Positions 6,424 to 32,958 of a DNA stretch of 63,547 bases are shown here, one piece after another. Positions within the stretch are counted from its first letter, which is position 1; each line of letters starts with the position of its first letter. A program made the position numbers and the translations under genes. Under the pieces are notes generated by a model, which was not told the DNA's origin, ran no database searches, and saw only the letters and a list, made by a program, of their open reading frames with translations. Source of the DNA: Syntrophomonadaceae bacterium (lineage in GTDB: Bacteria > Bacillota > Syntrophomonadia > Syntrophomonadales > Syntrophomonadaceae); contig JAAYCK010000157.1 of assembly GCA_012729835.1 (NCBI GenBank), positions 1 through 63,547 of the forward strand. Direction: 5' to 3'.

Positions 6424-8859
6424 TTATTCGGTGGGGATCCTCATCCCGTAGAAGGAGCGCCATACGAAGAACATCGCGATCACCAGGAAGACTCCGCCCA
6501 CTACCGGGGCAATGTCCTTAAATGCTTCTGAAATAGCGATCTCCATAGCCAGAAGACCAAACAGGGTGGTGAACTTGATGATCGGGTTCAAGGCTACGGA
6601 AGAGGTATCCTTGAAGGGATCGCCGACAGTGTCACCTACCACGGTGGCTTCATGCAGGGGAGTGCCCTTTTCCTGCAGATCCACTTCGACTACCTTTTTG
6701 GCGTTGTCCCAGCAACCGCCGGCATTAGCCATAAAGACCGCCTGGAACAAACCAAATATGGCAATCGAAATCAGATACGATATAAACAAGGCAACCGATT
6801 CTTCTCCCTTAACTGGCGCGGACAGGCACGAGAAGGCCAGGGTAAAGGAGAATATGGCGATAAAGATATTGACCATACCTTCTTGAGCATACTGGGTACA
6901 GATCTTGACCACTTCCTTGGATTTTTCAGTGGCTGCCTTCTGACTGGCGTTCTCATCCAGCTGTATATTGTTCTTGATATATTCTACTGCCCGGTAAGCA
7001 CCGGTGGTAACGGCCTGGGTGGAAGCTCCGGTAAACCAGTAGATTACCGCGCCACCGGCTAGAAAACCGAAGATGGTATAGGGATTCAACAGAGTCAGGA
7101 TCTGTTCCGGCTCAACGCCTAACACGTTCTTGATAACCAGGATCAAGGAAAAGATCATAGTGGTGGCGCCAACCACTGCGGTACCGATCAGCACCGGCTT
7201 GGCAGTTGCTTTAAAGGTATTTCCGGCACCATCCTGAGCCTCCAGGTAGTGTTTGGCCTTTTCGAAGTCCGGCTTGAATCCAAAGTCCTTTTGGATCTGC
7301 TTTTCGATATTGGGAACAGTCTCGATCAGGGACAGTTCATAGATGGACTGGGCATTATCAGTAACCGGGCCATAGCTGTCAACTGCGATAGTAACCGGTC
7401 CCATGCCCAGCATACCGAAGGCCACCAGGCCAAAGGCGAAGATGGACGGGTAGATCATGATATTTATCAAACCAAATCCGCTAGCAAAGTAGGCAGCAAA
7501 CATTAAAGCAAAGAAGACCATGCCGATCCAAAAGGCACTGAAGTTGCCGGCTACCAAACCAGAAAGGATATTCAGGGAAGGTCCGCCCTCGCGGGAGGCC
7601 TTGACTACTTCGGCCACGTGCATGGAATTCGGGCTGGTGAACACCTTGGTGAATTCAGGGATTATGGCAGCACCCAGGGTGCCCAGGCTGATAATGGTTG
7701 CCAGAACCAGCCATAAGCTGGAGAGTTCCGCGGGTACTCCATTGGAACCCGGTCCCAGCACATAATAGCTGACCGCGAAAGTCACAACGATTGAGAGTAT
7801 GGAGGTGATCCATACCAGGCTGGTCAAGGGTTGTTCAAAATCAAAATCGTCAGTATTTCCGAATCTAGCTTTACTCAAGCCTCGGTTGATCCAGAACGAG
7901 CCGATCGAGGTAATGATCATAAGTATACGCATGACGAAGATCCAGGTGAGCAGAATTCCAGTCAAAGCCGGCTGAACAGCCAGAACGATGAAAGAGACCA
8001 AGGCTACACCGGTAACGCCATATGTTTCAAATCCATCAGCGGTGGGACCTACACTATCACCAGCATTGTCGCCGGTGCAGTCGGCAATAACACCAGGATT
8101 ACGCGGATCGTCTTCCTTGATACCGAAGACGATTTTCATCAAGTCGGAACCGATGTCAGCGATCTTGGTGAAAATACCGCCGGCGATACGCAGAGCACTG
8201 GCGCCCAGAGATTCACCTACGGCAAAACCAATAAAGCTGGCTCCGGCCAGATCGCGCGGAACAAAGAGCAGGATGATCAGCATCATGATCAGCTCAACAC
8301 AGACCAGCAGAACACCGATGCTCATGCCGGCATCCAGAGCGATGTTTAAAAGCTTCAGCGGTTTTCTCTCCAGAGCGGAGAAAGCGGTACGGCTGTTGGC
8401 CAGGGTATTCATGCGAATGCCATACCAGGCAACACTATAGGAACCAAGTATACCTATGACGGTCCAGCCCAGGATAATAAGTACACCGCTGACCGGCGTG
8501 TCCTGTAGGAACCCAAAATAAAAGGCGATACAAAAACCGATAAAGGCGAATAAGACGCAAAGCAGTTTTCCCTGCTGCAAAAGATATGTTTTGCAGGTCT
8601 CATAAATAGTAGCGGCTACATCAAGCATTGATTGATGAGCTTCCAGCTTACTTACCTTGATGAACTGGTATAAACCGAACAGCATACCCAGAGCGCATAC
8701 TACAAGACCCAGGTACAGCAAGTTATTCTGTCCAGCGGTCAGGGTGGGAATGATCAAGTCGGCTTCACTGGCCATAACCAGGGCTGGCGACACCAGCAGT
8801 GCGATCAGAGCGAATAGGCCACTTGAGATAAATCTGGCCCAATTCTTAATGGGTGTCAT
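6424..8859 (-). CDS. hppA: Membrane-bound proton-translocating pyrophosphatase
   Basis: Couples hydrolysis of pyrophosphate, for example from fatty-acid activation, to ion pumping across the cytoplasmic membrane. The 811-residue protein has about 15-16 predicted membrane helices. The catalytic segment EDDPRNPGVIADCTGDNAGD and the later VGDTVGDPFKDTSS are clear. The motif GNTFKA has lysine where K+-dependent enzymes have alanine, so this should be the K+-independent, H+-pumping class. The N-terminus (residues 1-30) resembles a cleavable signal peptide and makes the protein longer than many relatives. The start is supported by AAGGAAGTG upstream. It is monocistronic, with its own terminator and a leader of about 300 nt. 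Confidence 0.96.
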   Translation of the reverse strand: MTPIKNWARFISSGLFALIALLVSPALVMASEADLIIPTLTAGQNNLLYLGLVVCALGMLFGLYQFIKVSKLEAHQSMLDVAATIYETCKTYLLQQGKLLCVLFAFIGFCIAFYFGFLQDTPVSGVLIILGWTVIGILGSYSVAWYGIRMNTLANSRTAFSALERKPLKLLNIALDAGMSIGVLLVCVELIMMLIILLFVPRDLAGASFIGFAVGESLGASALRIAGGIFTKIADIGSDLMKIVFGIKEDDPRNPGVIADCTGDNAGDSVGPTADGFETYGVTGVALVSFIVLAVQPALTGILLTWIFVMRILMIITSIGSFWINRGLSKARFGNTDDFDFEQPLTSLVWITSILSIVVTFAVSYYVLGPGSNGVPAELSSLWLVLATIISLGTLGAAIIPEFTKVFTSPNSMHVAEVVKASREGGPSLNILSGLVAGNFSAFWIGMVFFALMFAAYFASGFGLINIMIYPSIFAFGLVAFGMLGMGPVTIAVDSYGPVTDNAQSIYELSLIETVPNIEKQIQKDFGFKPDFEKAKHYLEAQDGAGNTFKATAKPVLIGTAVVGATTMIFSLILVIKNVLGVEPEQILTLLNPYTIFGFLAGGAVIYWFTGASTQAVTTGAYRAVEYIKNNIQLDENASQKAATEKSKEVVKICTQYAQEGMVNIFIAIFSFTLAFSCLSAPVKGEESVALFISYLISIAIFGLFQAVFMANAGGCWDNAKKVVEVDLQEKGTPLHEATVVGDTVGDPFKDTSSVALNPIIKFTTLFGLLAMEIAISEAFKDIAPVVGGVFLVIAMFFVWRSFYGMRIPTE

Positions 8860-13624: not shown

Positions 13625-14488
13625 ATGGAGATAAATACGGAGACCAAGGTTTTGGGTCTGCTGGGTAATCCCCTGGGGCACAGCCTGTCCCCCCTGATGC
13701 ACAATGCATTTTTTCTCAAGGCGGGATTGAACTGCGTTTACCTTCCATTTCAAGTGCCACCCGATGACTTGGCCAGAGCAGTGGAAGGCATACGTGCCTT
13801 AAACATCACCGGGGTGAATGTTACTATTCCCTTTAAGGAAAGCGTTATCCCATATCTGGACGAACTATCTCCAACTGCAGAATCCTGCGGTGCAGTAAAT
13901 GTGATAAAGAACCATAATGGACGACTTATAGGCTTCAATACTGATGGCACAGGCTTCATGGCCGCATTGCGTGAAGAGTCGGTGCAGGTGGAAGGGAGCC
14001 GGGTCCTCTTTATTGGGGCAGGCGGTGCTGCTAGGTCTCTGGCCCTGATCCTGGGGCAGGAGAATGCAGCACATATAGATTTTCTGGACACCGATTACCA
14101 ACGTGCCCATGCTTTATCGGAGACTTTGGGCAGCAAAAGCCATTGTACATCACGGGCTGCTCTGATGAATGACGCCAGTTTTCTGGAGTTCAGTGCCGGT
14201 TCAGATATTATTATCAATTGTTCCCCGATCGGGATGTACCCTCATGTCGACCAGTCACCGGTTAATAACCTTGACGTACTAGATACCCGGAGCGTTTTAT
14301 GCGATATTATTTATAACCCGCTGAATACCCGTTTCCTGGAAATAGGGCAGGCCAGGGGACTGAAAACCATTAATGGCCTGGGCATGTTTATCAATCAGGG
14401 GGCGTTTACCCTGGAGATTCTGCTGGGAATCACCCCGGACCGCGAGTATATGAGAAGCATCCTGGAAGCGCAGTTGGGGATGCAATAA
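13625..14488 (+). CDS. aroE: Shikimate dehydrogenase
   Basis: NADPH-dependent reduction of 3-dehydroshikimate to shikimate. The 287-residue protein has the substrate-binding GNPLGHSLSPLMHNAFF, the catalytic lysine in NVTIPFKESV, NTDGTGF, and the cofactor loop GAGGAARSLAL. The C-terminal NGLGMFINQGAFTLEIL is also conserved. It heads a run of aromatic-acid genes interleaved with pilus genes, and its stop overlaps the ATG of the prepilin gene by one base. A clear AAAGGGGGG site precedes the start. Confidence 0.96.
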   Translation: MEINTETKVLGLLGNPLGHSLSPLMHNAFFLKAGLNCVYLPFQVPPDDLARAVEGIRALNITGVNVTIPFKESVIPYLDELSPTAESCGAVNVIKNHNGRLIGFNTDGTGFMAALREESVQVEGSRVLFIGAGGAARSLALILGQENAAHIDFLDTDYQRAHALSETLGSKSHCTSRAALMNDASFLEFSAGSDIIINCSPIGMYPHVDQSPVNNLDVLDTRSVLCDIIYNPLNTRFLEIGQARGLKTINGLGMFINQGAFTLEILLGITPDREYMRSILEAQLGMQ

Positions 14489-24030: not shown

Positions 24031-24064
24031 AAGGCTACCGGTTGAAGTTCAGACCGGTAGCCTT
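24031..24064 (+). terminator. Hairpin terminator after pilA
   Basis: A perfect 11-bp stem AAGGCTACCGG/CCGGTAGCCTT (24031-24041 and 24054-24064) with a 12-nt loop, then AGTTTCATTGTTT. The U-tract is interrupted, so some read-through into the next membrane protein gene is likely. Confidence 0.75.
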
Positions 24065-24095
24065 AGTTTCATTGTTTGGGAGTAAGGTATATCAT

Positions 24096-26219
24096 ATGGT
24101 GGATCAACCGCAAAAAGCCAAAGCGGCACAAGTGCTATTCTTAACTTCATTTGTCATTTTTGTGGCCGTCATTCCCTGGATTGTGCGTCTAAAGATTTGT
24201 CCGATCGATAATAATATCTTCTTGTTCTGGACCGGACTCCATTCGGTTAATGACTTCTACAGCTATTACAAGAGCATTTTGGTAATATTGGCCGGAGTTC
24301 TATCTCTTATCGCTCTGGCAATGGCCCTGCTTAAAGCAGAGATTAACTTGAACAGGACCTGGTTTTATATCCCGCTGTTCTTTTATGCAGGGTTGATAGT
24401 GCTATCCGGCATAAATTCTGATTATCAAACTATAGCCTGGCTGGGTGGTCCCGACCGACGTGAAGGGGCTCTGGTCTTACTGGCTTATCTGCTGGTTTGT
24501 TTTGTAACCATGAACATGTTAAGGACTAAGCGCCAGATTAAAATTATCCTTATAGCCTTGATGGTTTCTGCGGGCCTGTTAGGGATCCTGGGCATCAGCC
24601 AGTATTATGGTTTCAAACTGATCACATCCGCGTTGGGACAATACCTGATAATACCGGCTGGTCTCCGTGATACCTTCCATCTAGTGCCATCCAGCAACAC
24701 TGTGCTTGCTACCTTATACAACCCCAACAATGCCGGAATGTATTTTGCCATGGCTTTTGTTTTAACCCTGGTAGATTTTTTTCACATTAGCAAGCCCAGA
24801 GGGCAAATAATGCTGGGGACGATATGCTGCATCACCTTTGCCAGCCTGCTGGGGACATACGCACGGGGGGCCTGGATCGGCACATGTCTATCCTTGATAT
24901 TGACCGTGTGGCTTTTGCGCAAGACTATCATCCAAAGGCGGCTGCCGGCTTTACTCATCACTTTTTGTTTGCTGCTTACCTATTTGATAATGAACCAAAC
25001 TGGATTGGCTGCCTTGAATACCCGGATGGGTTCAATAGGTACTGACATAAGCCAAGCCCAGCTTGCAAACCCTTGGGTCCCCAATAACTCAGATAATGGA
25101 GTTATTCAAGGTGAATATGGGAATGTAAGGCTAAGGTTGGACAATAATGAGTTAACCCTGCAAGCACCGGGACAACCACCTTTGAAGATACGAGTTAAAG
25201 AAGGAAGATTAAGTTTTTACGACGATCAGAACGAGAAAATCAGGCTGGGAGCAGATAATCGAAAGAACTGGTATTTCAGAAGCCCGAAATATAAAGATTA
25301 TTCGATGTGGCTCAACAATGATCGTTTATCTTTGGTTATAGGCGATGTTGCGCTACCGGAGCTGAGGATAATTGATGGAAACTATCTGTGGTTCGGGTCG
25401 CAGTTGACATCATCGTTAACTGGAATTGAGAGTAATAAGCATACTCTGATCCTTAGGAATAAGGTTAATGATATGCTTTCTATAAAACTGGAGGAGGGTA
25501 AAATCGTCTGCTCGGATCGGGACGACCGTATTCTACCCTTACAACGGATCCAGGATAGGGCTTGCTATATGATTGCGGATTCACGTTTTGCCGATTATCT
25601 CCTGATCCAAAAGAATAACATTTTGCTTATAGATAAAGGGGGCAGGCGAATACGCTTTGAGTTCACCGACCAGGGAGTTTTAAATCTGGATGTCTTTGGC
25701 CGCAGAGTACCGGTAAAACCAGCAGCTAGCCTGGGATTTGCGGGCAGAGAAAGTATGTTTTCCAATCGGGGATACATATGGTCAAGAACCCTGCCTTTAC
25801 TTAAGGATGCTATTTGGCTGGGCCACGGACCGGATACCTTTTTTATCTACTTTCCGCAGGACGACCGCATTGGAAAGTATTTGTACCTCTATTCTGCCGA
25901 GGCTGTAGTGGATAAACCCCACAACCTCTATTTGCAGACCTGGATGAATACAGGTTTGCTATCGTTATTAGCCTTGATTGCCCTATTCGGATATTACATA
26001 ATATCCAGCCTGAAGCTGTATAGCAGAGATAGAAAGGAAGACTTGTTTTCTTCCGTGGGGATAGGCTGTCTGGCCGCAGTTATAGCCTATTTGATCAGCG
26101 GTTTTGTTTATGACAGCAATATTTCTGTTGCTCCGGTATTCTGGGGATTGCTGGGCCTGGGTATCGCCTGCAACCTATTGTACCGGCAGTCAATTGATAA
26201 AATTACTTGGGATTTATAA
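24096..26219 (+). CDS. O-antigen ligase/polymerase-like membrane protein, possible pilin glycosyltransferase
   Basis: A polytopic protein of about 707 residues with a Wzy_C/O-antigen ligase core. About ten membrane helices fill the first 300 residues (with GGPDRREGALVLLAYL and GTYARGAWIGT), and the family signature is near the end (LGHGPDTF, then KPHNLYLQTWMNTGLLS). Between them is an unusual hydrophilic, beta-rich insert of about 240 residues with lysine- and aspartate-rich short strands. Position after pilA suggests a PilO/PglL-type oligosaccharyltransferase acting on pilin, an inference. The start is set at ATG 24096, behind GGAGTAAGG; an earlier TTG at 24042 falls within the pilA terminator hairpin. 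Confidence 0.82.
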   Translation: MVDQPQKAKAAQVLFLTSFVIFVAVIPWIVRLKICPIDNNIFLFWTGLHSVNDFYSYYKSILVILAGVLSLIALAMALLKAEINLNRTWFYIPLFFYAGLIVLSGINSDYQTIAWLGGPDRREGALVLLAYLLVCFVTMNMLRTKRQIKIILIALMVSAGLLGILGISQYYGFKLITSALGQYLIIPAGLRDTFHLVPSSNTVLATLYNPNNAGMYFAMAFVLTLVDFFHISKPRGQIMLGTICCITFASLLGTYARGAWIGTCLSLILTVWLLRKTIIQRRLPALLITFCLLLTYLIMNQTGLAALNTRMGSIGTDISQAQLANPWVPNNSDNGVIQGEYGNVRLRLDNNELTLQAPGQPPLKIRVKEGRLSFYDDQNEKIRLGADNRKNWYFRSPKYKDYSMWLNNDRLSLVIGDVALPELRIIDGNYLWFGSQLTSSLTGIESNKHTLILRNKVNDMLSIKLEEGKIVCSDRDDRILPLQRIQDRACYMIADSRFADYLLIQKNNILLIDKGGRRIRFEFTDQGVLNLDVFGRRVPVKPAASLGFAGRESMFSNRGYIWSRTLPLLKDAIWLGHGPDTFFIYFPQDDRIGKYLYLYSAEAVVDKPHNLYLQTWMNTGLLSLLALIALFGYYIISSLKLYSRDRKEDLFSSVGIGCLAAVIAYLISGFVYDSNISVAPVFWGLLGLGIACNLLYRQSIDKITWDL

Positions 26220-26496: not shown

Positions 26497-27411
26497 TTAT
26501 ATATTATGAGTCTTATGATAACGTGGGAACCAATGCCTGAACAATAGAAGGCATATGAGAAGGAAGCATCCGGTAAGTAACCCATCGTAATGAATGCTCA
26601 AATAAGCCATGGCAATAACAGGCAGTAGCAATACCTGCGTAGCAAACCGTAATTTTTCGTTATGTTTTATTTTTTCGGCTAAAGGCGGTGAATTGCGGTA
26701 ATACCACTCCACAAAAGAGACTCCCGGTCCGGTGGTTAGTAAAAATTCATCGCGAAATTGGCGCAGGAGTTCAACCTGTGGTGCCATAATAGAGCCGTAG
26801 GCAGCAGTGGCGATAAAACAGCCTCCCAGATTGGGAAGGGAAGGGGGAGGAACAACCGGATTGACACTGCTCACGCGAACCCGAGTCCCGGTAATCGAGG
26901 CTGGATTTGGGATGCGGTCGGGGATGGCGTTTTTGGTTCTGGCGGAGGCTTTTATCCGGAGAATTTCATTACCGGCTGTACTTTGTGCAGCCATTTCGTA
27001 GAACAAAACATTGGAAAATGCTTTATTGCTTCCATTGACGCTGGTAGTATTGGAAAAGGACAAGGTGAAACTGCCCGTGGCCAGACACCCGGTTTGCGAA
27101 CTGTTGCGAAACATAATGTCACCAACCGGATCATAGTTGCGAATATAGATATCAAAATCATTACTGCCCGGCGAGATAGAGGTATCGTAATTAATGGTAA
27201 AGGCATTTGCTTTCGATATTTGTTTGTCCATATAAAGGCCGACAGTTCTAATCTTCTGGTGGGCCTGCCAACGCGCCTGGGTTTGCAGATAGGATTTATT
27301 GGCCAGGTGGAATATAAATGAGGCGGCAGTTATTACCACTAATGCTATAGTCAATGAGATTATAAGCTCAACCAGAGTCATTCCCTGGTTTGAACATGAC
27401 CGCTTATACAA
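26497..27411 (-). CDS. PilW/GspJ-type prepilin with C-terminal CFI box domain
   Basis: A 304-residue fusion. The N-terminus is a prepilin signal (SNQGMTLVELIISLTIA: cleavage after G10, E15 at +5) followed by a J/W-type pilin body to about residue 185. After a proline-rich linker (VVPPPSLPNLGG) comes GGCFIATAAYGS (C198-F199-I200), then LLRQFRDEFLL, VEWYYRNSPPLAEKI and two hydrophobic helices at 258-292. This tail is the CFI-box-CTERM region found at the ends of diverse secreted proteins. Having a second membrane-spanning end on a minor pilin is odd, since it should resist extraction into the fibre unless processed. It is last of the leftward pilin set. Confidence 0.88.
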   Translation of the reverse strand: MYKRSCSNQGMTLVELIISLTIALVVITAASFIFHLANKSYLQTQARWQAHQKIRTVGLYMDKQISKANAFTINYDTSISPGSNDFDIYIRNYDPVGDIMFRNSSQTGCLATGSFTLSFSNTTSVNGSNKAFSNVLFYEMAAQSTAGNEILRIKASARTKNAIPDRIPNPASITGTRVRVSSVNPVVPPPSLPNLGGCFIATAAYGSIMAPQVELLRQFRDEFLLTTGPGVSFVEWYYRNSPPLAEKIKHNEKLRFATQVLLLPVIAMAYLSIHYDGLLTGCFLLICLLLFRHWFPRYHKTHNI

Positions 27412-27462: not shown

Positions 27463-29739
27463 CTATCTAATGTTAATCCCGTTTAGTTGTCTACCCGGCA
27501 ATAGCAATTTCCTGGTGTTCCAGGTGGTTCCTTCGGGAGAAACGAGGATTTCACCGTATTTGCTTACCGCCATAAATTGTACACTGCTATAATCACAATG
27601 AATAATATCTAAAAGGTCGGATGTGGATGGGGGAACCCCCCGTTGGATCCAATTGGCCCCGCCATTGCTGGATGAGAAAATAGCTCCATTACTGCCATCA
27701 ACCCCACAGGTAACCATAAGATTATTCATGGTGGCTATTCCATTAAGCCGGGTTACATTTATAAGCACCTGGGATTGCCAGAATGTACCATCACCTGACC
27801 ATAAAAGCGTACCATTTTCACCGGTAATAATATATCCTTCCTGACTCGGGGGGGCATTTTTACCCCAGTTAATTGCGTTTAGGGTTTCTCCAAGGGTAAG
27901 GCCATATTTCCCAGCCAGATAGCCTTCAACCTGTTTGCGTTCCCCAAAGTTAAGCTGTCGGTTAAAGACTATAATTTCAGCAATATAACCACTAAAATAG
28001 TCGGATGGGCTGCCTCCAATGCAAGTCTCTGAACCCGGGATGTCGATTTGCTGGTTTGCTCCCCCGATGCCTGCTATGTGCTGCCCGGTTCCATTATAAT
28101 AGCCTGATATATCCTTTATACAAGCGTTTGGAGCGTTTGCGATGGTCAATAAGGAAAAGGATCCGGGAATGGCACCAGATTCGTAATTAATATACCAGAT
28201 GGGACTGGTGCTAATTCTCACGCCGATTTCACTGGTTATTGCATAGCTGTTCCCAGGTAAGGTGGGGTTGAGGGTCATTATAGGGTTATTGTTAGTGGGG
28301 TTTGTTACTAAAAATATGGTGCGGCCCGAGGTTCCCCCCGCTAATATATTTTGTATGGTCAAACGGTCGTTAGCTTCATTGAAAAGAATAGCCGACTTCC
28401 CATTGACCTGATTGGTGGATAGTTCCGGTCCAAAATAGTTAATTGAGGGGGGAGGGCCCGGGATTGTGATCGGCGGAATTGCAGCAGCATCGTTATTATT
28501 ATTGCTGCGATCATTCCAGGTTTGCACTCGTCCATCCTGCTCAATAACCCCATGTCCGGCATCCAGCCATAGCACTGGATTCAGATTGGCTGCCAATGAG
28601 TTCTCAGCCACCGGTTGGCTTATCCAGATCCAGTTAATTCCATCGGTGGAGGATAGTAGGGTTCCGTTTTCCCCAACTGCCCAAAACCTTTCGCTACCAG
28701 AGGCACCCCAGAAGACTTTTTTTAGATGGTTGCTGGTGGGGGATATGCTCCAGCCCCAGTCTTTACCATTTGAGGAATGTGCTATTTGTCCATTATTGCC
28801 CACTATCACCAATAGTTCGCTGCCGTTTACGTTTCCCCTGGCAATAGAATTCCAGTTTGAACTACCCACAACATGTTGAGTCCAGCCGGCTTCATTTCCC
28901 AAAGTTATAACGCGTCCCGAGTCGCCTGCTATAACCCAGAGCTGGTTGGTATCTGATTTATTGAGGTGGGCTACACTATGCAGATTGGTGGTCAGCGAGG
29001 GCACAATACGTTGTTCCCAGTAGGTGCATTTATCTATGTCAGAACTAACAAGAATGGTACCGTTATCACCAACAATCATCATCTGGGGAAGATTGACCGG
29101 CAGCAGGGTTTCCGCTACTTCACGTATGGTAGTAAGCCTTATATCATATGGTGAATCAGCGTTATTTAAGGATAGCGGAAGAGTTAGCGCGGCGGCTTCT
29201 TTATTGATAACGGATAGTGCCAGAGTAGCCGGGAATAAGCGGTTCCCATTGCGATCCCGCAGTTCCACATTGGTTTCACCAGGGACAAAGTGTGTATTGC
29301 GGCCTTCGATATTTATAGTTATAGTTGAACCTCCGACAACCGCGGGTGAATAACCCTCATCCAGAATAAAAGGGTTTAATTTTATCCGGGGGACACCGGC
29401 CAGGAATTCATTCAAATCATCAGCTTTAACTGTCGCCCCGGCGATATTTTTCGAGGTATAGCCAGGAAAGTTGACGGGAAACTCGCCGTCTTTTAAGGGT
29501 ATAAAGGAGCCGTCATCAAATAGAACCCCGCTCTTGGTAGCGGCAATGACCTCCAGTTTATTTTGGCTACTGAATAGATTAATGGTTTTCCCAGTTGCTT
29601 GTGCAATCATCCGGGCGCACATAGAAAACAGGGGTAAAAATGAAGCTATTATTATACCCAGCAGGGCGATACTGGCTACTATTTCTACTAGAGTCATGCC
29701 GCGTTGGCCCACTAATTGCTTGCCTTCATTTTCTCGCAT
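27463..29739 (-). CDS. Giant prepilin with beta-propeller repeats and LamG-like domain
   Basis: A 758-residue PilV/GspI-like prepilin. The signal is GQRGMTLVEIVASIALLG (cleavage after G14, E19 at +5). Residues 115-210 look like an Ig/TIG-type strand domain. Residues 221-370 carry repeats such as VGDNGTILVSS, VGNNGQIAHSS and VGENGTLLSSTDGINW, of the BNR/Ycf48 beta-propeller kind. Residues 385-615 are a LamG/concanavalin-like domain (LWLDAGHG, VQTWNDRSNNNNDA, GYIAEIIVFNRQLN). Residues 637-755 return to propeller repeats (TGENGTLLWSGDGTFW, SSNGGANW). It is probably an adhesive tip subunit. The LamG domain appears inserted within the propeller. Confidence 0.88.
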   Translation of the reverse strand: MRENEGKQLVGQRGMTLVEIVASIALLGIIIASFLPLFSMCARMIAQATGKTINLFSSQNKLEVIAATKSGVLFDDGSFIPLKDGEFPVNFPGYTSKNIAGATVKADDLNEFLAGVPRIKLNPFILDEGYSPAVVGGSTITINIEGRNTHFVPGETNVELRDRNGNRLFPATLALSVINKEAAALTLPLSLNNADSPYDIRLTTIREVAETLLPVNLPQMMIVGDNGTILVSSDIDKCTYWEQRIVPSLTTNLHSVAHLNKSDTNQLWVIAGDSGRVITLGNEAGWTQHVVGSSNWNSIARGNVNGSELLVIVGNNGQIAHSSNGKDWGWSISPTSNHLKKVFWGASGSERFWAVGENGTLLSSTDGINWIWISQPVAENSLAANLNPVLWLDAGHGVIEQDGRVQTWNDRSNNNNDAAAIPPITIPGPPPSINYFGPELSTNQVNGKSAILFNEANDRLTIQNILAGGTSGRTIFLVTNPTNNNPIMTLNPTLPGNSYAITSEIGVRISTSPIWYINYESGAIPGSFSLLTIANAPNACIKDISGYYNGTGQHIAGIGGANQQIDIPGSETCIGGSPSDYFSGYIAEIIVFNRQLNFGERKQVEGYLAGKYGLTLGETLNAINWGKNAPPSQEGYIITGENGTLLWSGDGTFWQSQVLINVTRLNGIATMNNLMVTCGVDGSNGAIFSSSNGGANWIQRGVPPSTSDLLDIIHCDYSSVQFMAVSKYGEILVSPEGTTWNTRKLLLPGRQLNGINIR

Positions 29740-29769: not shown

Positions 29770-31074
29770 TTATCGGTAAGAAAAAGCCACCAGGTCATCG
29801 GGAGAAGGACGGGTTACCTTGGCGGGATCTACCGGAATAAGCTGGGCATCCCCCGTCCGGGTGGACCATTTCCCCTGCTTGGCTAGATATTTGTAAGCAT
29901 CATCATAATTGTTGAAAAACTGTGCTGTAACGCTCCCATTCAGGAGAGCGGTAAGGTAATCCCCAAAACTATTATAATTTTTTGCTTTTTCTGTATTGAT
30001 CAGACTTCCAATCGGAACACCGCCATCTTGTTGGATGAAATAGAAACCTTTATTGCGCAAATTATTGTCCGATTTAAAGCCTAAATCGGTTCTATCCTCA
30101 ACGTTGGAAAAGTATACCAATCCATAGCGGGCATTCAAATTTACTTTAGCCTGGTTGACTGTAGCCACGTTATGGTAGACTTCGGTACCCTCGATACCAC
30201 GGCCGGCAGGTACATGTAAAATTAGAAATCCAAAATCCAGTCCTAAGAAACCTGAACTTGAGTTATCGCAGCCCACAGTAAGCTCTTGTTCAAATACTAT
30301 GCTATCAGCAGACGCTACCAGAAACCCCTGAGGATTGGAAAGAGTCGCATTAAGGTTTAGATTCGTCGGGCTCTGGAAAAAGAGGGCCTGGGCAGGGTAG
30401 ATAATCTTATTGTTATCATTATTAGTGCTTAGGTAAAGGGGCCTCCCGTTGGGATAGCCATTTGCGGAATCAGTTTTAATCAATACGGTTCCATGAATCT
30501 CATTGTGAGGGTAAATATTGTATCCATTGGAAACGGTAAGATTGGCAGTATTACGAAGAATCTCCCCGTTACTGCGCTTATACCAGAGGGGATCCGTTTC
30601 GTGACCAGATACATATGGCTCGGAAACTGCGCTTTCATTGTGTACAAAACCCTGAATGGTTGCGCTAGCTTCTACTGTCCAAATATTGGTGCCGGCATTT
30701 TTTGTTATGATAGTATCCACCCGCCCAATGGTATCATTGGCGATTTGGTCGGCGGATAGGGCACTGGCTCGCCGATAGGTATGATCTGATTTCATCAGGT
30801 AAACAGGTTCCATAGTTCCGGTAGGCTTGGGGGTGCTGGTTCGCCAATACTCGATTGCGGCATCAATACCCGAACGCGCCAGGTATTTAGCTTGAATTGA
30901 CTGGCTTACGGTTTTGGATTGCAGGTGAGAGCTCTTGGCCAATGATAATAATGATACTGATAAAACAGTGATTATCAACAATACGAATAATACCAATATG
31001 AGGGCGGCCCCTCGATTACTTTTAGGGTAGGAGCTTCTATCGGTTTGTCGCAGATTGTGTATCAAATTAAGCAT
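29770..31074 (-). CDS. PilX/GspK-like prepilin
   Basis: A pilin-like protein of 434 residues from ATG 31074, chosen because GGAGGAG ends 6 nt upstream; an earlier ATG at 31089 is part of that ribosome site. The N-terminal SNRGAALILVLFVLLIITVL is a prepilin-type helix lacking the glutamate at +5, as in GspK/PilX tip subunits, and QAKYLARSGIDAAIEYW is typical of PilX. The remaining 350 residues are beta-rich and unrecognised. Its start overlaps the preceding 41-codon prepilin by 13 bases. It is encoded before the giant prepilin in the same leftward operon. Confidence 0.85.
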   Translation of the reverse strand: MLNLIHNLRQTDRSSYPKSNRGAALILVLFVLLIITVLSVSLLSLAKSSHLQSKTVSQSIQAKYLARSGIDAAIEYWRTSTPKPTGTMEPVYLMKSDHTYRRASALSADQIANDTIGRVDTIITKNAGTNIWTVEASATIQGFVHNESAVSEPYVSGHETDPLWYKRSNGEILRNTANLTVSNGYNIYPHNEIHGTVLIKTDSANGYPNGRPLYLSTNNDNNKIIYPAQALFFQSPTNLNLNATLSNPQGFLVASADSIVFEQELTVGCDNSSSGFLGLDFGFLILHVPAGRGIEGTEVYHNVATVNQAKVNLNARYGLVYFSNVEDRTDLGFKSDNNLRNKGFYFIQQDGGVPIGSLINTEKAKNYNSFGDYLTALLNGSVTAQFFNNYDDAYKYLAKQGKWSTRTGDAQLIPVDPAKVTRPSPDDLVAFSYR

Positions 31075-31187
31075 TGCCGACTCCTCCATAAAGAAGCAAA
31101 GCCCAGAATCAACATGGCTACTATCAGTTCCACTAGGGTCATTCCCCGTTGGTCATTATAGAATTCATAACGGTGTTTTTTCATCAT
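31062..31187 (-). CDS. 41-residue mini-prepilin, possibly truncated
   Basis: A short ORF with AGGGGAG upstream and ATG at 31187 (a second ATG at 31184). It encodes a proper prepilin signal, NDQRGMTLVELIVAMLILGF: cleavage after G15, glutamate E20 at +5. It then stops after only 12 further residues (ending SRQCLI) at TGA 31062-31064, overlapping the following PilX-like gene by 13 bases. There is no globular domain. Either it is a pilin reduced by deletion, kept as the leading cistron for translational coupling, or a genuine micro-pilin. The position fits an H-type subunit at the head of an H-K-I-J set. Confidence 0.65.
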   Translation of the reverse strand: MMKKHRYEFYNDQRGMTLVELIVAMLILGFASLWRSRQCLI

Positions 31188-31539: not shown

Positions 31540-31935
31540 TTGGAAACTATTGAGAGCAAAGAAAGTGCAGGCTTCACCTTGGTCGAGGTTATCCTCGGCG
31601 CAGCGATCCTGGTGCTTTTGTCATTGTTTTTGGCCGGGGCAGCCGGTCCGTTGATTGTTGGCATTGAGCAGGCAGAAAACGAGACACTGGCCTCCAATAT
31701 GGCCTTTGCAGTTCTGGAGGCTATTCGAGCAGAAGCGGAAGACCTCGACTTAGATTCTTCGCTGACATTATATGAATTAGGTTTGAGCAACCCCAACAAC
31801 TTGATAGTGACCATCTATTCCGAACAGGATATGGAGACACCTGAGTTATATCAAGTAAGCGTTCAGGTCGATACGAGAGGCAGAAGACACGGGTCTGTAA
31901 GCATGTGTACAGTGATCAGAAGGTGCGGCGAATGA
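31540..31935 (+). CDS. PilV/GspI-type minor prepilin
   Basis: A 131-residue prepilin with signal ESAGFTLVEVILGAAILV (cleavage after G11, E16 at +5), a helix to about residue 35, then ENETLASNMAFAVLEAIRAEAED, the I/V-type pattern. The start is TTG at 31540, 5 nt after AGGAGG (31529-31534); the nearer ATG at 31536 is in another frame and stops at once. It is first of a three-gene rightward pilin set. Confidence 0.85.
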   Translation: METIESKESAGFTLVEVILGAAILVLLSLFLAGAAGPLIVGIEQAENETLASNMAFAVLEAIRAEAEDLDLDSSLTLYELGLSNPNNLIVTIYSEQDMETPELYQVSVQVDTRGRRHGSVSMCTVIRRCGE

Positions 31936-31965
31936 TACTTTTATTCATGGTGAGTTTTGGTGCCA

Positions 31966-32415
31966 ATGATTAAGTTGGGTAGCCAAAAAGGATATCTCAT
32001 AGTTGAATACCTGATTTCACTAACTATGATGGCTGTGGTTATATTAGTATTATTTGCCCTACTGAATGCTGCCGGTTCATTATCCGCTTGTACTCAGGTC
32101 GATGCTGATCTGCACTATTCGGCCAGAAGTGCCATGCTGCTGATAAAAGATGATGTGCTGGAGGCTAATAAACTACAGGTAATCAATGCGGGCAAGACCC
32201 TTCGCGTGGAATCAAGTGAAGGAGCAGTGAGCTACTATATCCAGAATCAGCAGTTGTATCGGCATGGTCAGAGCAAGCTGCCAGTGGCAGAAAATGCTCA
32301 ATCGATCACTTTCCGAGTGATTACGCCGGTATTAGTCGAGGTGATTTTCGAGGTAGAGTCAAAGGGCAGAAGCTGTCAAATACAGAGTGCCTTCTGCGTC
32401 AGGGTTGAGAGTTGA
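31966..32415 (+). CDS. PilW/GspJ-type minor prepilin
   Basis: A prepilin of about 149 residues. The signal is SQKGYLIVEYLISLTMM, with glutamate at +5 of the mature end and tyrosine in place of phenylalanine at +1. The body (SARSAMLLIKDDVLEANKL, GAVSYYIQNQQLYRHG) follows the J/W pattern. Start choice is uncertain: TTG 31957, GTG 31960 or ATG 31966, with GGTGAG at 31949-31954 as the only ribosome site; the ATG is given here. It lies between I-type and K-type genes. Confidence 0.8.
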   Translation: MIKLGSQKGYLIVEYLISLTMMAVVILVLFALLNAAGSLSACTQVDADLHYSARSAMLLIKDDVLEANKLQVINAGKTLRVESSEGAVSYYIQNQQLYRHGQSKLPVAENAQSITFRVITPVLVEVIFEVESKGRSCQIQSAFCVRVES

Positions 32416-32445
32416 CAAATCTAGCATATCGCAGGGGGGCAGGTT

Positions 32446-32958
32446 GTGGGCTCAGAGAAGGGTTCAATCTTGTTGGCGGTATCGGTAATTTTCTTGATAA
32501 TAGGCTTGCTCTTGCTGAGTGTGCTGGAGTTAGCCAGTATCGAACGAAAAATGAGCAGGAACTATACCGATTTATTACAAGCCCGCCAGGCTGTTGATGG
32601 CGGAGTCGCCAGAACTTGCCAACTAACCTTGAGTAGTTTGCAGGCTGGTGCTGGTGCAGAAGCTCTGCCCGGGTTACCGGTAGGTGCAAATACGGGCAGT
32701 CAGGTCATCGGGGATCCTTCAGGGCAGGTTAGCTATCGGATCCGGGGCGAAGGGGTCAAACTGGCAGTTCAAGGAAGCAACTACGGCATTTACGCTTTTT
32801 CCTGTGAGGGTAGCAGTCATGGAGTGGTCCAGACAGCCTCAGTAAAAGTGAGATACGGGTTTTCGAATATTTATAAGTATACATCAGGGTACCCGCTCTT
32901 CGACCATAGAATCTTCAATGATCAAGGCAGGGTCACTTATTATCAGCTTGATAAGTGA
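32446..32958 (+). CDS. PilX/GspK-like minor prepilin
   Basis: A 170-residue protein starting at GTG 32446 behind GGGGGGCAGG. The N-terminus SEKGSILLAVSVIFLIIGLL is a prepilin-like helix without glutamate at +5, as expected for the tip subunit K/X. QARQAVDGGVARTCQL matches the PilX pattern. The C-terminal domain of about 120 residues is not recognised. It closes the rightward I-J-K set that precedes pilM. Confidence 0.8.
   Translation: MGSEKGSILLAVSVIFLIIGLLLLSVLELASIERKMSRNYTDLLQARQAVDGGVARTCQLTLSSLQAGAGAEALPGLPVGANTGSQVIGDPSGQVSYRIRGEGVKLAVQGSNYGIYAFSCEGSSHGVVQTASVKVRYGFSNIYKYTSGYPLFDHRIFNDQGRVTYYQLDK

Follow-up and report, generated by a model that had tools for sequence, protein, structure and literature searches.

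A large prepilin from a Syntrophomonadaceae bacterium with a predicted seven-bladed propeller that hosts a LamG-like domain

We describe a gene for a large modular prepilin in a Syntrophomonadaceae genome; the window, that is, the whole stretch of DNA analysed, comprises 63,547 nucleotides. The encoded protein is probably a modular minor type IV pilin of the filament tip, in which a beta-propeller platform would present a ligand-binding LamG domain that grips glycan-bearing surfaces. From the N- to the C-terminus, it consists of a leader, a pilin helix, a beta-sandwich spacer, four propeller blades, a LamG/ConA-like domain and three further blades (Table 1). Syntrophomonas species, to which the source bacterium is related, are anaerobic bacteria living in partnership with methane-producing microbes. 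How they contact their partners through adhesins has been reviewed as largely unknown (PMC11224092), and the protein described here offers a candidate means by which syntrophs that oxidise fatty acids could hold on to partner cells or the sludge matrix, a step about which little is known.

Results

Prepilin part and spacer

The first-pass annotation had read this gene as encoding an unusually large prepilin, and both parts of that reading are borne out: the protein has 758 residues, and its leader motif, MRENEGKQLVGQRG followed across the predicted cut by MTLVE, scores 19.2 bits with TIGR02532 (cut-off 16.3). Features beyond that annotation are the minus strand, the domain at about residues 117-218, the three-gene context and the relatives in which LamG is missing or permuted. 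In the pilin helix, TLxEI is invariant across the orthologues. The region behind it forms six strands in the structural model, and because no Ig or TIG match to residues 117-218 was found in Pfam, it is called only putatively Ig-like. When the 758-residue protein was searched alone, Pfam matches were limited to the N-terminal motif and, weakly, the repeats, neither of them above cut-off, and phmmer against PDB matched the geopilin helix alone. Since Pfam was nearly blank for the single protein, LamG and propeller had to be tested by other means.

Table 1 Features of the prepilin gene and its two neighbours (positions in the window).
Feature	Position	Strand	Basis
Whole modular prepilin gene, stop codon included	27463..29739	minus	758 residues; ORF list and orthologues
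Class III prepilin leader, residues 1-14, predicted cut after Gly14	29698..29739	minus	TIGR02532 above cut-off
Pilin N-terminal helix, residues 15-59, Glu at mature position 5	29563..29697	minus	Model: helix 17-59
Beta-sandwich spacer, about residues 117-218	29086..29391	minus	Six strands in model, pLDDT about 70-86
Propeller blades 1-4, residues 219-372	28624..29085	minus	Motifs at 222, 269, 311, 354; model, VIA-align, Ycf48 profile match
LamG/ConA-like insert, residues 373-635	27835..28623	minus	Insert model, VIA-align, PF13385 in orthologues
LamG N-terminal hairpin (VLWLDA...W.DRSNNN), about residues 390-420	28480..28572	minus	Alignment to orthologues
Propeller blades 5-7, residues 636-758	27466..27834	minus	Motifs at 637, 676, 724; model and VIA-align
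K-like (PilX/GspK-like) pilin, 439 aa, upstream, without Glu5	29770..31089	minus	Weak profile matches and locus comparison
J-like (PilW-like) prepilin, 304 aa, downstream, C-terminal CFI-box domain	26497..27411	minus	TIGR02532 and NF041770 above cut-off

Two blade blocks forming one predicted propeller

Four blade motifs of the Ycf48/BNR type precede the insert and three follow it, which gives seven, and they agree (222-354 and 637-724) with the repeat blocks that had been proposed at residues 221-370 and 637-755. An AlphaFold2 model of the whole protein, built on an alignment of eight rows, was of moderate confidence (mean pLDDT 61.8, pTM 0.49), with per-blade pLDDT mostly 70-92 in blades 1-4 and about 58-76 in blades 5-7. 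Foldseek with the whole model returned multi-domain noise, and VIA-align was used instead. With this method, model residues 218..758 matched a designed seven-bladed propeller (Z 25.6, rmsd 3.0, 273 of 286 residues). As both blade blocks together hold about 277 residues, these 273 aligned residues are best explained, in the model, by one seven-bladed ring that closes across the insert, as the first-pass annotation had proposed; two separate half-propellers were rejected given a match that spans this range. In addition, a profile built from residues 1-370 reached solved Ycf48 propellers (E 1.6e-8), and PSII_BNR was above cut-off in one orthologue (L045).

The fold matches also bear on whether the head could be an enzyme, with a BNR/sialidase-like or lyase-like propeller and LamG as its carbohydrate-binding module. 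VIA-align matched the propeller to 3b7f (a BNR putative glycosyl hydrolase, Z 21.8) and 2z2n (virginiamycin B lyase, Z 24.2), and sialidases with a ConA-like lectin domain were found among the LamG fold matches. However, the propeller matches are at the level of fold only, and the invariant propeller columns among the orthologues are Gly, Trp, Leu, Ile, Val and Ser, with no acid, His or Arg. The lack of any invariant charged residue speaks against catalysis, and we judged an enzymatic head to be very unlikely.

The inserted LamG/ConA-like domain

Pfam gave no match to PF13385 when the 758-residue protein was searched alone. In three orthologues, Laminin_G_3 (PF13385) was above cut-off at the same site, with E down to 4.6e-11, and the LamG core of the window protein aligned to the complete orthologues with Z 4.9-14. 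We folded residues 373-636 on their own with the orthologous pieces, which gave a model of moderate confidence (pTM 0.69, mean pLDDT 61.5) whose N-terminal hairpin reached about 74-86. The best VIA-align matches of this model were all ConA-like, namely phage tailspike (Z 13.4), GH54 (Z 12.4) and trans-sialidase, and the minor pilin PilC of Streptococcus sanguinis matched with Z 11.0 over 186 residues (insert-model residues 7..241). The predicted structure thus has a LamG/ConA-like fold, and the claim of a LamG-like domain between the blades stands on both the orthologue matches and the fold. A LamG profile searched against solved structures found no convincing relative by sequence; the relatives are by fold only. 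Not every LamG-type domain binds sugar, and the shared ConA-like fold does not prove sugar binding.

Relatives and history of the insertion

A search of related genomes gave orthologues within Syntrophomonadaceae. When GTDB contigs were scanned, the single protein as query found 0 relatives, and an alignment as query confirmed the orthologues, which were present in Syntrophomonas palmitatica, Syntrophomonas sp. DTU018 and sp. UBA5432, Syntrophomonadaceae MAGs and an uncultured Clostridia MAG; one related genome (G001) belongs to the same genus as the window genome. Matches covering the pilin part occurred in 7 of 54 Syntrophomonadaceae genomes. The search for further prepilin-propeller-LamG fusions, which the first-pass annotation had called for, was productive, with LamG at the same site in seven Syntrophomonadaceae. 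In the S. palmitatica orthologue (L044, near 7440-7570), a frame change inside LamG splits the gene at a place without a long homopolymer, and it would be either a sequencing error or a broken gene.

Other relatives have an uninterrupted head. L048 (532 aa) consists of prepilin, spacer and propeller, and this LamG-free layout also occurs in another three families of the phylum (L109, 575 aa; L110, 491 aa; L121-L123, 503-513 aa). Seven blades each were counted by eye from the motifs of L048, L109 and L110. Given these LamG-free heads, the simplest history is that an older prepilin-propeller acquired LamG between its blades 4 and 5, which accords with the insertion site that had been suggested. 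From group to group, the C-terminal blades show little conservation, so position and motif carry the homology of blades 5-7 to the same degree as alignment does. Most of the other propeller matches in the relatives (about 560-600 aa, with many repeats) have a start that is not prepilin-like, and a search of plasmids with the prepilin gave a Thermus propeller as the sole match. In another Syntrophomonadaceae genome (G006), a J-like prepilin carries a C-terminal BNR-type propeller with PSII_BNR above cut-off (L101:502-1995), apparently an independent second kind of prepilin-propeller fusion.

The LamG-free relatives also allow a different division of labour, in which the propeller would do the main work as a PilY1-like cap, stabiliser or primer of the tip complex, and maybe as a ligand binder, with LamG as a lineage-specific decoration. 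The LamG-free prepilin-propeller is kept in other families, with the gene order unchanged, and a search for PilY1 among 60 relatives found none. On the other hand, no conserved polar patch was seen on the propeller surface among the orthologues, and LamG has been retained in the seven Syntrophomonadaceae, with a single copy split by the frame change. We therefore consider this division of labour unlikely and prefer the propeller as a platform for LamG.

The window genome itself holds one PilY1-like frame (L124, 998 aa, with an open 5' end) on contig 88, a 3.4-kb contig of lower GC (0.40-0.44), where it lies beside a partial panC-like frame. Because none of the 60 relatives has PilY1, this contig is possibly a contaminant. 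Given this one match, it cannot be stated cleanly that PilY1 is absent and that the propeller pilin replaces it. More tentatively, and with some doubt, we propose that Bacillota without PilY1 built a propeller-capped tip of their own from a Ycf48-type propeller and an I-type pilin, in which the edge between blades 4 and 5 became a dock for LamG that was later permuted. If this is true, the propeller-pilin head would be an evolvable platform for tip adhesins analogous to PilY1.

Circular permutation of the insert

The hairpin (VLWLDA...W.D.S..NN.A) lies before the LamG core in the window protein, in S. palmitatica and in a paralogue on contig 156 of the window genome. In DTU018, UBA5432, AS10, AS06_469 and AS06_353, it lies after the core, right before blade 5. 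The window hairpin aligned to DTU018 residues 620-649 with Z 7.0 and the core to DTU018 residues 376-584 with Z 14.0; the hairpin also aligned to that of AS10 with Z 8.8 and to those of UBA5432, AS06_469 and AS06_353 with Z 4.0-6.1. Judged from these alignments, the five orthologues have a circularly permuted LamG domain, which occupies the same position between blades 4 and 5. In VIA-align, solved ConA-like domains span the window insert from ahead of the hairpin to its end, so the hairpin-first order is the canonical one and the five hairpin-last orthologues are the permuted ones. These five also group in a tree of residues 1-370 with support of 92/90, although the branches are long. Most simply, the permutation would have arisen by duplication, after which the outer parts were lost.

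Gene neighbourhood

The propeller pilin gene lies between a K-like and a J-like gene, and this order was seen in all loci read, including those of the LamG-free relatives. The K-like pilin gave matches below cut-off to PilX_N (E 0.0011) and GspK (E 4.6e-5). At the C-terminal end of the J-like prepilin, hydrophobic segments come after a CFI-box-CTERM domain (NF041770, 93.8 bits), an arrangement unusual for a pilin. With I-subunit models, the propeller pilin gave weak XpsI and ComGE matches below cut-off, and its relative L109 matched ComGE with E 1.5e-5; its assignment as a putative I subunit rests on these weak matches and on its position. PilT and PilM are above cut-off in the window, which also encodes a PilB-like ATPase, a GspG-like pilin, a GspF/PilC-like platform protein and a GspH/ComGD-like pilin (at 14488).

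Another small I/J/K-like set is located at 31540-32958, and it could be the real tip complex instead. This set would suit a location of the propeller pilin in the shaft or cell envelope as a system-specific minor pilin. Such pilins can be spread along filaments (PMC10191384). However, bulky modular pilins have been argued to be tip exposed (PMC8179133), and the propeller pilin is always accompanied by a K-like pilin without Glu5, which makes a shaft or envelope location quite improbable. Placement at the tip, which we favour, gains support from the conserved gene order and from the precedent of PilC (PMC9934059).

Several other features of the surroundings were observed. An ORF at 31062-31187 on the minus strand, which overlaps the start of the K-like pilin gene, has a perfect prepilin start (QRGMTLVELIVAMLILG) and stops after about 41 residues; it appears to be what is left of a deleted pilin. 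Immediately behind the GspG-like pilin, 24042-26219 on the plus strand encodes an O-antigen ligase-like protein (Wzy_C), a candidate pilin O-glycosylation enzyme. The window genome has more three-gene sets with J-like and K-like genes (L035, L036 and L094 on contigs 156, 26 and 51, respectively), whose large I-type pilins have 561-627 aa or are cut by the contig end, and those on contigs 156 and 51 have LamG-like sequence at the end. Large exchangeable pilin heads thus seem to be a habit of the source organism. In the permuted-LamG group, an Lgt-like membrane protein follows the J-like pilin (L045:9092-9880, with equivalents in L047, L049 and L050); the prolipoprotein diacylglyceryl transferase model is below cut-off, and a PilT-like ATPase adjoins in most.

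Discussion

Based on these results, we propose the following mode of action. First, prepilin peptidase would cut the leader after Gly14, and the N-terminal helix would pack into the filament alongside the co-encoded K-like and J-like pilins; the three would most likely form the tip (priming) complex, with the propeller pilin as its I subunit. Second, the beta-sandwich spacer would raise the closed seven-bladed Ycf48/BNR-type propeller off the shaft, where it may serve as a rigid platform and not as an enzyme. Third, the LamG/ConA-like domain would be shown at the propeller edge between blades 4 and 5, where it is likely to bind the ligand; in this way, extension of the pilus and its retraction by PilT could result in a grip on glycan-bearing surfaces, for example partner cells or the sludge matrix. 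Bulky modules grafted on minor pilins mediate adhesion (PMC8179133), and by analogy the best reading is that surface glycans or matrix polymers would be the ligand of the head; binding to partner cells or insoluble substrates is likewise plausible. Beyond this organism, no insert, insert and permuted insert at one site form a natural series for the study of domain nesting in repeat proteins.

Modular pilins with LamG and pilus tips bearing a propeller (PilY1) are already known. In the open-access literature, leaving out the 264 pilin architectures of PMC8179133, we found no prepilin-propeller fusion and no LamG nested in one, and a propeller that is fused to a prepilin and hosts LamG appears to be new. 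The protein has two features of modular type IV pilins (PMC8179133), a class III motif and a grafted non-pilin domain, and a third, cleavage by prepilin peptidase and assembly into a filament, is predicted for it. PF13385 is among the common modules grafted on pilins (PMC8179133). Compared with PilB of S. sanguinis and other modular pilins (PMC8179133), it shares the class III leader and a non-pilin module, but PilB carries a vWA module in place of propeller and LamG. Ycf48/HCF136 has the same blade sequence type and blade number, whereas these proteins serve in photosystem assembly and have neither a pilin part nor a LamG insert. The tip protein PilY1/PilC (PF05567) places a beta-propeller at the tip, carried there by minor pilins (PMC8179133, PMC10191384), and the window protein is predicted to place one there too; however, PilY1 is a non-pilin with its own propeller family, whereas the window protein has a prepilin motif of its own and did not match PF05567 in Pfam at E up to 1. 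The closest parallel in design is PilC of S. sanguinis (7oa8, 7oa7; PMC9934059), likewise a large modular minor pilin, which joins pilin, Ig-like and ConA-like lectin modules and is glycan-binding. PilC has no propeller and its lectin is terminal, whereas in the window protein blades 4 and 5 enclose LamG. The window protein thereby adds a propeller class to the modular pilins.
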